Below, piece by piece: positions 10,757-17,506 of a DNA stretch of 64,000 nucleotides. Made by a program: the position numbers and the translations under genes. Within the stretch, counting starts at the first letter, position 1. Each line of letters begins with the position of its first letter. Where the stretch lies: NCBI GenBank assembly GCA_016235665.1, contig JACRJI010000003.1:1-64000 (forward strand), in the 5' to 3' direction. The notes under the pieces are model-generated. The model had not been told where the DNA came from, made no database searches, and saw only the letters and a list, made by a program, of their open reading frames with translations. Source of the stretch: a candidate division TA06 bacterium (GTDB lineage: Bacteria > Edwardsbacteria > AC1 > EtOH8).

Positions 10757-12028
10757 ATGCTGGATCCCAAATTCATCCGGGAGAACATCGAACTGGTCAA
10801 GAAGGCCATCGCCGACAAGGGCGAGAAGGCCGACCTGGGGCCGTTCCTGGAACTGGACGCCAAGCGCCGCGGCATCCTCCAGGAGGTGGAGACCCTGAAA
10901 TCGGAGCGCAACAAGGTCTCGGAGGAGATCGCCAGGCTGAAGAAGGAAAAGTCGCCTTTGGCTGACCAGAAGATAGTGGAGATGCGCCAGGTGGGCGACC
11001 AGATCAAGGCGCTGGACGACGAGCTACGCACGGTCGAAGAGAAACTGTCCGAGGCCACCCTTTCCCTGCCCAACATGCCGGACCCCTCGGTACCCATCGG
11101 CAAGGACGAGTCCGAGAACCTGGTGGATCGGGTGGTCGGACAGGAGAAGAAATACGACTTTGCCCTAAAGCCCCACTGGGAGCTGGGCGAAAAGCTGGGC
11201 ATCATAGATTTTGAGCGCGGGGCCAAGATCTCCGGCAGCCGGTTCTATCTGCTTAAAGGCGCCGGGGCCCGGCTGCAGCGGGCGCTGATCACCTGGATGC
11301 TGGACGTCCACACCCGGCAGAGCGGTTACACCGAGATCTATCCGCCCTACATGGTCAGCGGAAAGTGCCTGGTGGGAACCGGCCAGCTGCCGAAATTCGC
11401 CGACACCGTTTACAAGGACATCGAGGAGGACTTTTGGTGGGTGCCCACCGCCGAGGTGCCGGTGACCAACATGTACCGCGAGGAGATTTTGGACGGCGCC
11501 CTGCTGCCGGTCAACCACGTGGCCTACACCGCCTGCTTCAGGCGGGAGAAGATGTCGGCCGGCAAGGACGTCCGGGGCATCAAGCGGGGCCACCAGTTCG
11601 ACAAGGTGGAGCTGGTGAAGTTCGTCCTGCCGGAGAATTCCAACCAGGAATTGGACAAACTGATCGCCGACGCCGAGAAGATCCCGCAGGCTTTGGGCTT
11701 TAAGTACAGGATCTTAAAGATGTGCACCGGCGACCTGGGCTTTACCGCCGCCAAGAAGTACGATATTGAGATCTGGGCCGAGGGCTGCCAGGAGTGGCTG
11801 GAGGTCTCCTCCTGCTCCAACTTCGGGGATTTCCAGGCCCGCCGCGCCAACATCAAGTTCCGGCGCGAGCCCAAAGCCAAACCGGAGTTCGTGCATACCT
11901 TGAACGGCTCGGGGCTGGCCCTGCCCCGGACCATGATAGCGGTGATGGAGAATTACCAGAACGCCGACGGGAGCATTACCGTGCCGGAGGTATTGAGGCC
12001 GTACATGGGGATGGACATTATAAAATGA
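10757..12028 (+). CDS. serS: Serine--tRNA ligase
   Basis: A 423-residue class II synthetase that charges tRNA-Ser. The N-terminal tRNA-binding coiled coil (about 30-105, rich in Glu/Lys/Arg) is followed by the catalytic domain. Class II motif 2 is in FRREKMSAGKDVRGIKRGHQF, adjacent serine-site residues lie in PTAEVPVTN, and motif 3 is in NGSGLALPRTMIAVMENYQ. AAAGGAA precedes the ATG. The last 20 codons are partly duplicated downstream at 12178-12204 and 12871-12930. Confidence 0.98.
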   Translation: MLDPKFIRENIELVKKAIADKGEKADLGPFLELDAKRRGILQEVETLKSERNKVSEEIARLKKEKSPLADQKIVEMRQVGDQIKALDDELRTVEEKLSEATLSLPNMPDPSVPIGKDESENLVDRVVGQEKKYDFALKPHWELGEKLGIIDFERGAKISGSRFYLLKGAGARLQRALITWMLDVHTRQSGYTEIYPPYMVSGKCLVGTGQLPKFADTVYKDIEEDFWWVPTAEVPVTNMYREEILDGALLPVNHVAYTACFRREKMSAGKDVRGIKRGHQFDKVELVKFVLPENSNQELDKLIADAEKIPQALGFKYRILKMCTGDLGFTAAKKYDIEIWAEGCQEWLEVSSCSNFGDFQARRANIKFRREPKAKPEFVHTLNGSGLALPRTMIAVMENYQNADGSITVPEVLRPYMGMDIIK

Positions 12029-12177
12029 TTTATTCATCAGCGATACCATTAATGATATCGCTGGTCATTCATCAAGGTTTCTACGAAACCTACTACGGCC
12101 CAGGCCGCACCCGCGGCCTTGATGATACCCAGCGATGGGTTTCAACCCATCGCGCACCCCCGGTAGTTTTACGGTAG
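12029..12177. repeat. Palindromic repeats downstream of serS
   Basis: Two inverted repeats lie here: 12038-12063 (CAGCGATA / TATCGCTG) and 12132-12153 (GCGATGGGTT / AACCCATCGC around TC). The second resembles the GGGTTTCAAACCC-type palindromes at 15633 and 17466. The stretch lies between the intact serS end and a second, short serS 3' fragment. No ORF is supported. Confidence 0.6.
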
Positions 12178-12204
12178 TATATGGGGATGGATGTGATAAA
12201 ATAA
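12178..12204 (+). pseudogene. serS 3'-end fragment, copy 2
   Basis: 27 bp translate as YMGMDVIK and a stop, repeating the serS C-terminus YMGMDIIK with one conservative change and a few silent differences. It is too short to function; it is read as a duplication scar. See the longer copy at 12871-12930. Confidence 0.7.
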
Positions 12205-12240
12205 ACATTGAGACATAAAACCAACAATACGAGGCGAAAA

Positions 12241-12864
12241 ATGAAAAAGACCACCGGATCATCACTGTTGTTGTTTCTATTAGCAATTCTCACCATTGCT
12301 TCATGTAACAGGCAAACCATAATACCAGCATCAAGGATGCAGCCGCGGCTGAGTTTTTATGGGTTTACCGTGGCCAGACCGCCGGATACTGGATGGTTTG
12401 CACTACAAAGTGAGCAAAAAGACGATAGGGCAATTTTTAGAAAGAAACTTAGTTCGCCCACCCACACTGCTTTTGTTGAGATTTATTTAGGGAGAATGGA
12501 ACGTGCGGCTACAAGCCTTGAGGATCTGGTCTTTATTGATAAAGCCTCCCATGTATTTGAAGACACTGTGCGTTTTAAAATGGTTAACTTTACCCAAACC
12601 CCCACTAACCGGCAAGGGCAATGGTGCGTAAACTGGACAGAGCAGATAATTGACCGTCAACCAGCAATTACACCAAGCATACACCTCGTGGCACGCGCAC
12701 AGGGCTTCAGGTGCATTCAACCTATTTATAAGAACACGGTTGTCATTAAAGCAGAAGTATCAGAGCGGGGCTTGGAAGGGGAGCTTGACTCTTTGATCAT
12801 CAGAGAAGGTGAAGAAATTTTGAAAAGCATTGTGTTAACCGATACCATGGGCGCACCATTTTAG
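12241..12864 (+). CDS. Lipoprotein of unknown function
   Basis: 207 residues with an N-terminal lipoprotein signal (KKTTGSSLLLFLLAI, lipobox IASC at about 18-21), and no recognised domain. GAGGCG lies just before the ATG. The gene is more AT-rich than its neighbours and is bracketed by two fragments of the serS 3' end (12178-12204 and 12871-12930), indicating that it was inserted after serS. Its function cannot be deduced. Confidence 0.75.
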   Translation: MKKTTGSSLLLFLLAILTIASCNRQTIIPASRMQPRLSFYGFTVARPPDTGWFALQSEQKDDRAIFRKKLSSPTHTAFVEIYLGRMERAATSLEDLVFIDKASHVFEDTVRFKMVNFTQTPTNRQGQWCVNWTEQIIDRQPAITPSIHLVARAQGFRCIQPIYKNTVVIKAEVSERGLEGELDSLIIREGEEILKSIVLTDTMGAPF

Positions 12865-12870
12865 TAATTT

Positions 12871-12930
12871 CGGGATTACCGTGCCGAAGGTGCTGAGGCC
12901 GTATATGGGGTTGGATGTTATAAAGTTTAG
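12871..12930 (+). pseudogene. serS 3'-end fragment, copy 3
   Basis: This 60-bp stretch repeats 11968-12026 of serS. Translated, it reads ITVPKVLRPYMGLDVIK against ITVPEVLRPYMGMDIIK. Several differences are third-position changes and there is one 3-bp gap. That pattern suggests a fragment of a diverged, once-functional serS allele rather than random decay of a recent duplicate. It has no start codon of its own. Confidence 0.8.
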
Positions 12931-12965: not shown

Positions 12966-13610
12966 ATGCCAAATATATGTATTTATTGCGGGAAACCAGC
13001 AACAACAAGTGATCATTTACCACCAAAGTGCTTTTTTCCCAAACCATACCCACCAAATTTAGTTACAGTGCCTTGCTGTTTTGAATGCAACAAATCGTTC
13101 TCTACAGATGAAGATTATACAAGACTTGTTTTTGCTACTTCTCGTAGCATCATTAGCAATAATGAGATCGGTGTTAAATTATGGGAACAGAAAGCACATA
13201 AAACATTATCAAAAAACCATAAACTTGCCTCCGAGATTTATCAGCAATTTAAAAGTATTGACGTATATTGGGGTAAAATTTACCTTGGCAAAACCCCCGG
13301 ATTTAAACCAGACATGAAGAGAATAGTACGTATTGTTGAAAAAATAACACGTGGTTTGTTTTATTTTGAAACAAAAAAAATATTAGATAAAGATACCAAG
13401 GTTATTGTAAAAATGAGGCCCAAATTTGATAATAGCTTGGCAACAAAACAACTTTTAATAAATTTATCTAAAAGCCCCGTTGGAATTTTTGGAAACGGTG
13501 TTCTAATGTATACTTGTGCTTTTTGTGATGAAAGTATACAAAATTCAGTTTGGTTTTTAAGATTTTTAAATGACGATGGGCTTACTTTTATATGTTTTAC
13601 AAGAAGTTAA
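12966..13610 (+). CDS. HNH-nuclease-like protein
   Basis: 214 residues, AT-rich. The N-terminus carries CIYCGKPATTSDHLPPKCF followed by a second knuckle CCFECNKSFSTDED, that is CxxC - DH - CxxCN, the layout of HNH zinc-knuckle endonucleases. The rest (about 60-214) has no recognised motif apart from a late CAFC. A TTG at 12933 is an alternative start, but MPNICIYCG from 12966 is better. The composition and the position next to the serS scar point to acquired DNA. A phage or defence role is possible but unproven. Confidence 0.7.
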   Translation: MPNICIYCGKPATTSDHLPPKCFFPKPYPPNLVTVPCCFECNKSFSTDEDYTRLVFATSRSIISNNEIGVKLWEQKAHKTLSKNHKLASEIYQQFKSIDVYWGKIYLGKTPGFKPDMKRIVRIVEKITRGLFYFETKKILDKDTKVIVKMRPKFDNSLATKQLLINLSKSPVGIFGNGVLMYTCAFCDESIQNSVWFLRFLNDDGLTFICFTRS

Positions 13611-13642: not shown

Positions 13643-13687
13643 ATGTCAAACAACATCCTCATCCGCCCATACCAGCTCATCGACTCC
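13643..13687 (+). pseudogene. GNAT gene 5' fragment A
   Basis: The first 15 codons (MSNNILIRPYQLIDS) match the start of the acetyltransferase at 15113 (MTEDILIRPYQPGDS) and of fragment B at 14504. The match stops abruptly; the reading frame continues out of register into the next gene. It is interpreted as a left-over 5' end. Confidence 0.7.
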
Positions 13688-13724: not shown

Positions 13725-14210
13725 ATGAAACTCGACAAAACCAAACTCTCCCTCCGCAAAGCCACCGCCGCCGACATTGAGACCCTCATCGAGCACCGGA
13801 TCCTCTTTCTAAAAGAGGTCCACTGCAACCCATCCCCCGAACTGGAGACTTCCGTTAGGCAGTCACTGCGGCAATACCTGGCCGGAGCGTTTAAAAACGA
13901 TACCTTTGTTTCCTGGATCGCCGAATACGAAAGCAAGCCCGTTGGCTTCAGCGGCATGGTCATCCGGGAGCAGCCCGGCAACTTTGAACTGCCCACCGGC
14001 CGGACCGGCTACATCTTGAACATGTTCACCATTAAGGAATTCCGCGGGAACGGGATCGGGTCTTCGCTTTTCCAAAAACTGCTGGAAGAGGCCAAACTGC
14101 GGGGCCTGGACAAGGTGGAACTGCACGCCACCAAGGACGGCGAACCGGTCTACCGTAAGTTCAAGTTCACTGAACCGCACGACATAGCCCTGGAGATAAT
14201 TTTAAAATGA
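13725..14210 (+). CDS. GNAT-family N-acetyltransferase (first)
   Basis: A 161-residue GCN5-related acetyltransferase. The acetyl-CoA pyrophosphate loop is visible as EFRGNGIGSSLF, preceded by the beta-4 segment TGYILNMFTI and followed by the C-terminal GEPVYRKFKF. The substrate is unknown. The gene starts 37 bp after a 5' fragment of a different GNAT gene (13643-13687), so it appears as cargo behind that fragment. A dispersed repeat lies after it. Confidence 0.88.
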   Translation: MKLDKTKLSLRKATAADIETLIEHRILFLKEVHCNPSPELETSVRQSLRQYLAGAFKNDTFVSWIAEYESKPVGFSGMVIREQPGNFELPTGRTGYILNMFTIKEFRGNGIGSSLFQKLLEEAKLRGLDKVELHATKDGEPVYRKFKFTEPHDIALEIILK

Positions 14211-14503: not shown

Positions 14504-14596
14504 ATGTCAGACAACATCCTCATCCGCCCCTACCAGCCAACCGACTCCATCCCGGAGATCACCGCCCTTCTGCACCGGGCCATTACTAATCATTAG
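14504..14596 (+). pseudogene. GNAT gene 5' fragment B
   Basis: 30 codons ending in TAG. The first 26 (to LLHRA) match the acetyltransferase at 15113: the DNA between 14516-14581 and 15125-15190 differs at only a handful of positions. The match breaks exactly where the NUDIX leader begins. It could be translated as a short leader peptide, but it looks like a truncated duplicate. Confidence 0.8.
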
Positions 14597-14608: not shown

Positions 14609-15091
14609 ATGCCTTGGCCTACACACATTGTTGCCGCCGCAGGTTATGTCTTTGACAAAAACGATAACCTTCTCATTGTAAAAACCGAGCACCGGGGATG
14701 GGATTGTACCGGGGGTCAGATAGCCTCTGGCGAAAGCCTTGAAGAAGGGGTCTTGCGTGAAATACTGGAAGAAAACGGCATAAAAGCCTCCGTAAGATGT
14801 TTGGCCGGCATATATTCCAATGTGGGCCAGGACCTATTTCATGACGGCACAACAACAATTCCAACCAAGGTCATGTTTGATTTTATCTGTGATCACATTG
14901 ATGGAAAACCTACGCCCTCAAGCGAGACCAGCAAGGTGATCTGGGTTCCCAAGAGCAAGGTTTTGGAATATGTCACAGCACCCGCGTGTTTGCTCCGATT
15001 TAAAAATATACTAGAATTTGACGGCCGGGTCAGATATTGTTCTTATGTCACAAAGCCGGAATTCAGGGTCTTGTCATCACGGTATGTATAA
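14609..15091 (+). CDS. NUDIX hydrolase
   Basis: 160 residues. The full NUDIX box (G-x5-E-x7-R-E-U-x-E-E-x-G-U) is present from about residue 35 as GGQIASGESLEEGVL then REILEENGI, with the catalytic Glu pair intact. The likely reaction is hydrolysis of a nucleoside diphosphate linked to another moiety; the substrate is unknown. TTAGGAGA lies upstream of the ATG. It sits between GNAT fragment B and the complete GNAT gene. Confidence 0.92.
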   Translation: MPWPTHIVAAAGYVFDKNDNLLIVKTEHRGWDCTGGQIASGESLEEGVLREILEENGIKASVRCLAGIYSNVGQDLFHDGTTTIPTKVMFDFICDHIDGKPTPSSETSKVIWVPKSKVLEYVTAPACLLRFKNILEFDGRVRYCSYVTKPEFRVLSSRYV

Positions 15092-15112: not shown

Positions 15113-15664
15113 ATGACTGAAGATATCCTCATCCGCCCATACCAGCCCGGCGACTCCATCCCGGAGATCACCGCCCTTCTGCATCGGGCCTACGCTAAGC
15201 CGGCCGGGCAGGGCGTCCGCTTTTGGGCCTCACGCCAGGACGACACCGTCACCGAGAAACGGCTCAAAAAGGGAACCTCCTTCCTGGCCGTCAGGGACGG
15301 CGCCATCGTGGGCACCATCTCGGTCTACGGCCCGGACAAAAACTCCGCGGCCGAGTTCTACCGGCGGGAAGACGTCCGCTATTTCGGGCAGTTCGGAGTG
15401 GACCCCACCCTGCAGGGCACCGGCCTGGGCAAACGGCTGTACCAAACAGTGGAGGACCATTGCCAAAAGAACAACATCAGGTACCTGGCCCTGGACACCT
15501 GCGAGAACGCAGCGGACCTGATAGAGATGTACCAGCGCTGGGGCTTTAAGCAGGTGGACCGGGTCAAATGGGAGGTGGTGGATTTCCGCAGTATCATCAT
15601 GGCCAAGGACCTGACCGCCGTAAGGGCAGTAAGGGCGGGTTTCAAACCCGCCCCGACAGGATAA
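15113..15664 (+). CDS. GNAT-family N-acetyltransferase (second, complete copy)
   Basis: A 183-residue acetyltransferase with the acetyl-CoA loop QGTGLGKRLYQ and a typical YQRWGFKQVD end. It is the intact relative of fragments A and B. The last residues, RAGFKPAPTG, are encoded by a palindromic repeat (15633-15653), so the C-terminus has been extended by inserted repeat DNA. The same peptide is read from the repeat copy at 17466. The substrate is unknown. Confidence 0.9.
   Translation: MTEDILIRPYQPGDSIPEITALLHRAYAKPAGQGVRFWASRQDDTVTEKRLKKGTSFLAVRDGAIVGTISVYGPDKNSAAEFYRREDVRYFGQFGVDPTLQGTGLGKRLYQTVEDHCQKNNIRYLALDTCENAADLIEMYQRWGFKQVDRVKWEVVDFRSIIMAKDLTAVRAVRAGFKPAPTG
15633..15653. repeat. GC-rich palindromic repeat, copy 1
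   Basis: A perfect inverted repeat with arms GGGCGGGTTT and AAACCCGCCC around one C, preceded by GTAA and followed by CCGACA. The identical sequence is at 17466-17486. It lies inside the coding end of the GNAT gene. Confidence 0.9.
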
Positions 15665-15670
15665 AGTAAC

Positions 15671-16102
15671 ATGCCGGCCACCGATCCCCGGCAGCACTCT
15701 GCCGAACACATACTGACCGCGGTCTTCGGACTGCTCTTTAACGGCAAATTGCTGGACACCCGGTTCAAGGGCACCAAGGTCCGCTGTGACTTTGCGGTCC
15801 AAAGCGGTCTGCCCCTGGAAGAGATCATCCGGCAGACCGAGGCCAAAGCTAACGGGATCATCGCGCAAAATCTGGATGTCACCTACGAACAGATGACCGC
15901 CGGCGAGGCCGCCGCCTACTGCTCCCTGCACCGCCTGCCGGAGGGCGCGGAGAACGTAAGGCTGGTGCGCATCGGCCCGGATGTGGTGACCCCCTGCAGC
16001 GGCCCGCACGTCAAGAACACCTCGGAGATCGGCCGCCTGCACATCCGCACCTGGAACTGGGTGGAACCGGGACTGATAAGACTGACCTTCGTGGTGGAGT
16101 GA
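15671..16102 (+). CDS. AlaX-like tRNA-editing protein
   Basis: 143 residues, matching the second (editing) domain of alanyl-tRNA synthetase as a free-standing protein. The zinc ligands are HSAEH near the N-terminus and CSGPHVKNTSEIG near the C-terminus. Such proteins deacylate mischarged Ser- or Gly-tRNA-Ala. The gene is short but has all four metal ligands. It begins 6 bp after the second GNAT gene and is followed by palindromic repeats. Confidence 0.88.
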   Translation: MPATDPRQHSAEHILTAVFGLLFNGKLLDTRFKGTKVRCDFAVQSGLPLEEIIRQTEAKANGIIAQNLDVTYEQMTAGEAAAYCSLHRLPEGAENVRLVRIGPDVVTPCSGPHVKNTSEIGRLHIRTWNWVEPGLIRLTFVVE

Positions 16103-17441: not shown

Positions 17442-17465
17442 ACATGTCCCGTATGGCAAAGGTAA

Positions 17466-17486
17466 GGGCGGGTTTCAAACCCGCCC
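17466..17486. repeat. GC-rich palindromic repeat, copy 2
   Basis: Identical to 15633-15653, with the same flanks (GTAA before, CCGACA after). Here it lies between genes, 20 bp before the zinc-ribbon protein start. Confidence 0.9.
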
Positions 17487-17506
17487 CGACAAAAAGAGAT
17501 AACCAT

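Follow-up and report, generated by a model that had tools for sequence, protein, structure and literature searches.

Several described systems resemble the gene-end remnants reported here. Integron cassette arrays consist of single-gene units, with the newest nearest the anchor, and the tandem accretion of CIMEs and IMEs at gene 3' ends lines up inserts that are each delimited by a copy of the gene's 3' end. In the minimal mobile elements of Neisseria, the cargo is exchanged, and experiments on homology-facilitated illegitimate recombination have mostly ended in the loss of recipient DNA. For rhs genes, Jackson and colleagues proposed C-terminal displacement through one crossover of a circular molecule (PMC2935791), while Kirchberger and colleagues invoked homology-facilitated illegitimate recombination to account for the immunity arrays of Vibrio (V. 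cholerae; PMC5361080). Restriction-modification genes of H. pylori are described as inserted with a long target duplication (Nobusato 2000; PMC1643837, PMC4978471). Many variable bacterial regions change their content without integrases, and little is understood of how genes are gained there while the resident DNA is kept.

Here, we describe a locus at which such gain can be followed. The window, by which we mean the whole stretch of 64,000 nucleotides that was analyzed, belongs to a candidate division TA06 bacterium (genome G000), one of the ten genomes, G000 to G009, in the family of the source genome. We consider it probable that the region running from serS through an acetyltransferase gene to an AlaX-like gene is an integrase-free hotspot formed by repeated homology-driven displacement of gene ends. 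Its features are as follows:

10757-12028, plus strand: serS, intact, 423 aa; its current 3' end (last ~54 nt) is apparently imported
12039-12153, no strand assigned: dispersed hairpin element, probably REP-like, 115 nt, between serS and remnant 1; apparently the youngest serS-side insert
12160-12204, plus strand: serS remnant 1, a putative displaced earlier 3' end joined to the lipoprotein gene; aligns with the last 45 nt of serS including TAA
12241-12864, plus strand: lipoprotein-like cargo gene between remnants 1 and 2; no family match, but a homologue with 52% amino acid identity directly behind serS in G005
12875-12924, plus strand: serS remnant 2, a putative older displaced 3' end; about the last 50-51 coding nt of serS
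12966-13610, plus strand: HNH-like cargo gene, a weak assignment (HNH_5, E=0.0037, under the Pfam cut-off; Cys pattern)
13643-13687, plus strand: 5'-end remnant a of the acetyltransferase gene at 15113-15664, from the direct-repeat scan
13725-14210, plus strand: GNAT acetyltransferase, cargo or older resident; present in G002 too
14504-14583, plus strand: 5'-end remnant b of the acetyltransferase gene at 15113-15664; native MSDN-type start ATGTCAGACAA as in G002
14609-15091, plus strand: NUDIX cargo gene, apparently the youngest right-side insert; 89% DNA identity with G009 (another genus)
15113-15664, plus strand: GNAT acetyltransferase, the right anchor; body like G002, first codons (MTED) apparently imported and like those of G009 (MNED)
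15671-16102, plus strand: AlaX-like (tRNA_SAD) gene; its own 5' end is found as a remnant in G009

The last codons of serS recur twice downstream, as the original prediction had claimed, with local alignment scores of 29 (remnant 1) and 44 (remnant 2) that lie far above the best obtained with shuffled sequences (10-11). Both remnants lie where they had been placed; remnant 1 (CCGGTAGTTTTACGG...AAATAA) proved longer than described, running from 12160 to 12204, and carries an in-frame TAG in place of the expected CCG, and remnant 2 has lost its stop codon. The alternative raised at the time, that the fragments are a general intergenic repeat, is ruled out, since all three matches to the serS 3'-end motif in the 2.7-Mb genome lie at the serS locus.

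Silent changes predominate in both remnants (5 of the 8 changed codons in remnant 2 and 5 of 7 in remnant 1), which agrees with the earlier view that the fragments came from a diverged serS under selection. Across the final 45 nt, the best match of remnant 2 is the serS end of the congener G002 (40/45, with part of the mismatch being the lost stop codon, vs 35/45 to the serS of the window), and that of remnant 1 is the serS end of G005 (38/45), where the same lipoprotein gene lies behind serS; this comparison leaves out the remnant row of G008, which is out of register by one base. When serS itself is compared with that of G002, silent identity falls to 8/14 in the last 17 codons, against 323/377 before them (p=0.011), with a similar drop over codons 361-423 (p=0.009). 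Between genera, silent identity shows no rise at the 3' end of serS and, hence, no sign of a long imported tract. Taken together, the affinities of the remnants and of the serS end and the drop in silent identity to G002 suggest that the end of serS travelled with the insert and that the former end was left behind. The two events that had been predicted at serS, each with a replacement 3' end and cargo and each leaving the old end in place, hold up on this evidence.

The hairpin-rich element between serS and remnant 1 was absent from the original prediction. A 130-nt query (12026-12155) has matches at eight distinct sites in G000 (E<1e-4), some of them full-length and many partial, and copy numbers in G005 and G008 are comparable. 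The element folds into several hairpins (z -6.2); aligned copies share palindromic arms (AGCGAT...ATCGCT), of which the terminal arms are conserved, and a central stem (CATCAAG...CTTGATG), and the middle hairpin is variable and covarying. An Rfam search with the element returned no family match. In G005 (contig C6), a Y1 transposase gene sits between copies of the element, and in G008 (contig C64), one sits beside a single copy; the window copy has no such gene beside it. Given these transposase genes, 12039-12153 most likely belongs to a RAYT-type transposase as its REP-like element, and it shares two traits with REP/BIME sequences and their RAYTs, namely a dispersed, short, palindromic intergenic form and an association with a Y1 transposase gene that has copies of the element beside it (on one side only in G008). 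The element of ~115 nt is undescribed and dispersed in two genera (window 12039-12153; loci L210, L211, L166, and L198).

The cargo behind serS differs between the genomes of the family. In G002, one finds an HNH protein and, in G009, a RelA/SpoT-domain protein. G005 has a lipoprotein-like gene as in the window, followed by a serS remnant (L121 9792-9841) and a DUF5677 protein; G008 has a hairpin element of the window kind, then a serS remnant (about L123 9503-9542), and beyond this a small protein, a methyltransferase, and a Bro-N protein. The cargo, therefore, varies at a fixed place. In all, there are four serS remnants with different neighbors in three genomes (G000, G005, and G008), and G002 and G009 are without one; no precise empty site was found. 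The lipoprotein gene (G005) and the hairpin element (G008) each recur with a serS remnant, which means that cargo and remnant recur together in another genus. The junction between the serS stop codon and the element is identical at 23 of 25 positions in G008, with the serS remnant again behind the element, and the 37-nt spacer between stop codon and lipoprotein start is 78% identical between the window and G005 (62% for the lipoprotein gene).

Candidate defense proteins recur in this cargo, namely the HNH protein (G002), PDC-S33 (the RelA/SpoT protein of G009), and PDC-S13 (the Bro-N protein of G008), and the NUDIX gene of the window has a weaker match to PDC-S07. The region between serS and the acetyltransferase gene, thus, looks like a small defense-gene hotspot. 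Elsewhere, at the folD locus of G005, a methyltransferase with a BglII-type endonuclease forms a candidate defense pair; this MT-A70 methyltransferase and the endonuclease (L211 2494-3788) adjoin a folD 5'-end remnant.

Among G001, G006, and G007, serS is absent from two nearly complete genomes, and in G006, it runs off the contig end at residue 411, perhaps because the repeated serS ends break assemblies. Contig C39 of G001 reads N in part, and its end (L213) carries a partial lipoprotein gene followed by the apparent start of an insertion sequence, not by a serS remnant.

A scan for local direct repeats across the whole 64 kb yielded two gene-end patterns: the one at serS and, at the opposite edge of the locus, a mirror-image one at the 5' end of the acetyltransferase gene. 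Remnants of the latter gene are present in G000, G008, and G009, and in the window, remnants a and b each sit ahead of a cargo gene, the order expected if inserts enter at the 5' end. In G009, the NUDIX counterpart likewise has an acetyltransferase remnant on one side and the acetyltransferase gene on the other. The gene itself (15113-15664) is 88% identical to that of G002 and 74% to that of G009, whereas the adjacent NUDIX gene is 89% identical to G009. The first codons in the window (ATGACTGAAGAT) group with those of G009 (ATGAATGAAGAC), and those of remnant b (ATGTCAGACAAC) with G002 (ATGTCAGACAAT); the start codons, in other words, go with the NUDIX cargo and not with the body of the gene. 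An identical 30-nt palindrome (GTAAGGGCGGGTTTCAAACCCGCCCCGACA) also occurs twice in the window (15629-15658 and 17462-17491), and the first copy, near the close of the acetyltransferase gene, adds a C-terminal extension, VRAGFKPAPTG, where G002 has TAPN.

Other genes of the family possess such remnants as well. Gene-start remnants were found for V-ATPase beta in G000 and G008, for folD in G005, and for a glycyl-type tRNA synthetase and the AlaX-like gene in G009. Across anchors, every remnant is short, at about 18-100 coding nt, and break positions vary. Among nine pairs of functional gene and remnant, 24 of the 39 changed codons are silent against an expected share of about 0.25 (p=1.5e-6, with codons taken as independent and pairs picked by eye).

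One way of assessing frequency is an automatic criterion, which in 664 kb sampled from G000 and G009 returned three gene-end remnants (serS, V-ATPase beta, and tRNA synthetase) and two other repeats, and missed the acetyltransferase and AlaX remnants that were found by eye. In 789 kb of 80 other bacteria, it gave two candidates, one of which touches both contig ends and is likely an artefact, and 200 kb of genome G021 gave no gene-end remnant candidates. The numbers are suggestive of gene-end remnants being commoner in the family than in the controls, but too small to carry a claim. The only plausible gene-end repeat of the control set lies on an Omnitrophota contig (L050 8574-8625 and 9719-9770). 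A different kind of repeat, a long array of diverged ~21-nt tandem units (CTTGCTTACAGGTGAAATACG), adjoins a repeat-rich coding region at L208 (G000:C8 191900-195100), with a similar array at L212.

Which process could have left these remnants? On the serS side, the layout matches integration into the 3' end of a gene exactly, with the replacement end near and the displaced end far, as for an IME, a CIME, or a prophage. A tyrosine or serine recombinase acting in trans on an attachment site at the serS 3' end, with tiny CIME-like cargo elements and with the remnants as tandem attR sites, would also suit the serS-side break points, which fall within ~12 nt of one another (45-57 nt ahead of the stop codon), and the likeness of the lipoprotein and hairpin-element junctions in two genera; the other contigs of G000 hold six tyrosine-recombinase and two resolvase-type matches. 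However, the site-specific recombinase that one expects in, or linked to, such an element was not found. Profile searches (PF00589 and PF00239) found none on the serS contig of G000, G002, G003, G004, or G008; in G005, a resolvase-domain match on that contig is the nearest, about 270 kb off, and in G009, the nearest recombinase matches are more than 400 kb from serS. None was seen among the scanned cargo genes, and viral contigs, searched by pattern for an attachment site containing the serS end, yielded nothing. The remnants at the acetyltransferase 5' end and at four further genes break at variable positions, with lengths of ~18-96 coding nt, and would need different sites, so one attachment site would hardly explain them. 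We, therefore, find no support for an integrase-bearing element that inserted itself into the 3' end of serS, and we regard the action of a recombinase in trans as unlikely, although it is the most credible of the alternatives. The original prediction of a 3'-end integration history survives in its displaced ends, which cargo variation and remnant affinities bear out, but not in its implied integrase, given that none is linked and that remnants occur at 5' ends too. Its remark that the window lacks an integrase can be extended to the whole serS contig of 295 kb, and the search that it proposed for an integrase next to serS elsewhere found none in the relatives covered.

Other origins should be considered as well. 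The remnants could be decayed copies of the local gene end, made by tandem duplication or by a long target-site duplication, and an insert between direct repeats is just what "insertion with long target duplication" describes; yet the changes are mostly silent, remnant 2 is nearer the serS end of another species than the local one, and two REP-like copies beside V-ATPase beta diverge from each other more than the repeated gene start does, all of which make such an origin improbable. We find it very improbable that the RAYT/REP system is responsible, with the Y1 transposase moving single-stranded DNA beside REP-like hairpins and copying the adjoining gene end. REP-like copies do adjoin remnants at serS, V-ATPase beta, and folD, and the transposase gene lies among or beside copies in G005 and G008, but most copies have no gene-end repeat. 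The hairpin element is rejected as the general cause of the duplications because several remnant-bearing inserts (lipoprotein, NUDIX, and Bro-N) lack it at their junctions. The least probable reading of all is that the remnants are functional, as short peptides or as a terminator or regulatory site taken from the gene end, and kept by selection: several are open in frame with a conserved peptide, but remnant 1 has its in-frame TAG and remnant 2 no longer has a stop codon, neither position nor length is constant, and G002 and G009 do without a serS remnant.

Repeated displacement of gene ends, the explanation that we favor, would proceed as follows. Foreign DNA, probably from related cells, would bring the end of an anchor gene together with cargo; homologous recombination with the resident anchor gene would restore that gene with the donor end and add the cargo, and the resident end would be shoved outward and kept as a remnant of ~30-100 nt. 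On the serS side, there would have been two rounds, the lipoprotein gene entering before the REP-like element, and on the acetyltransferase side two mirror-image rounds, a unit with the GNAT gene at 13725 and then the NUDIX gene. Once the cargo lies between a gene end and a remnant, it has homology on both sides and could move as a cassette by ordinary recombination. Uptake would probably occur by natural transformation and the joining would presumably depend on RecA, through the single crossover of a circle, as in the Rhs model, one-sided illegitimate joining, or recombination between remnants. The DNA uptake channel ComEC is encoded in 10 of the 10 genomes, and from this one gene, we infer that the family may be competent. 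Some observations sit less easily with displacement, among them the missing empty site and the lack of a rise in the silent identity of serS between genera. The remnants are consistently short, unlike the prediction of plain one-sided joining, for which one may assume that longer repeats are unstable and lost by deletion, or that some step limits their length. The clustering of serS break points (~12 nt) also fits a site-specific enzyme.

The remnants record the time order of insertions and show that the anchor gene's end arrived with the donor DNA. If general, they would give a simple sequence signature of gene gain without an integrase, in this case the gain of restriction genes and other candidate defense genes, and would broaden end displacement beyond toxin genes to include housekeeping genes. 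A broader proposition is that the ends of core genes serve as portable, integrase-free cassette joints, such that cargo carrying 30-100 nt of a housekeeping-gene end stacks by RecA recombination at several loci, at 3' and 5' ends alike, as a general route for defense genes; we put this forward tentatively and think it rather less likely to be right than wrong.

Among known systems, tip displacement in Rhs, CDI, and T6SS genes (Jackson 2009, PMC2935791; Kirchberger 2017, PMC5361080) shares these traits: a new 3' end with cargo joins the conserved part of a gene, the old end lies downstream with a short piece of that conserved part, arrays build up, no integrase is involved, and homology limits the donors. 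The ends are likewise exchanged independently of the gene body, here between species and genera. It differs in that the anchor here encodes a housekeeping product that stays essentially the same, that the cargo consists of independent genes or a REP-like element, that 5' ends are used too, in mirror image, and that the anchors (serS, GNAT, folD, V-ATPase beta, an aminoacyl-tRNA synthetase, and an AlaX-like gene) lie outside the rhs, cdiA, and T6SS families.

Among described signatures for defense genes, the long target duplication of H. pylori comes nearest; it shares defense-type cargo set between direct repeats of target sequence. The repeats here carry silent lineage-specific differences and are stacked on both flanks, and this divergence at silent sites speaks against one target copy as their source and points to a foreign origin. 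Homology-facilitated illegitimate recombination (PMC3240628; discussed in PMC5361080) also joins one end by homology and the other without, but here the recipient DNA is retained and a short repeat remains. The minimal mobile elements of Neisseria share varied cargo between the same two core genes and the lack of an integrase, whereas here cargo is added and scraps of gene ends stay. CIME/IME accretion shares the array of inserts bounded by gene 3'-end copies and differs from a locus with no recombinase and with 5' ends in use; integron arrays share stacked single-gene units with the newest beside the anchor, but the repeats here are coding gene ends.
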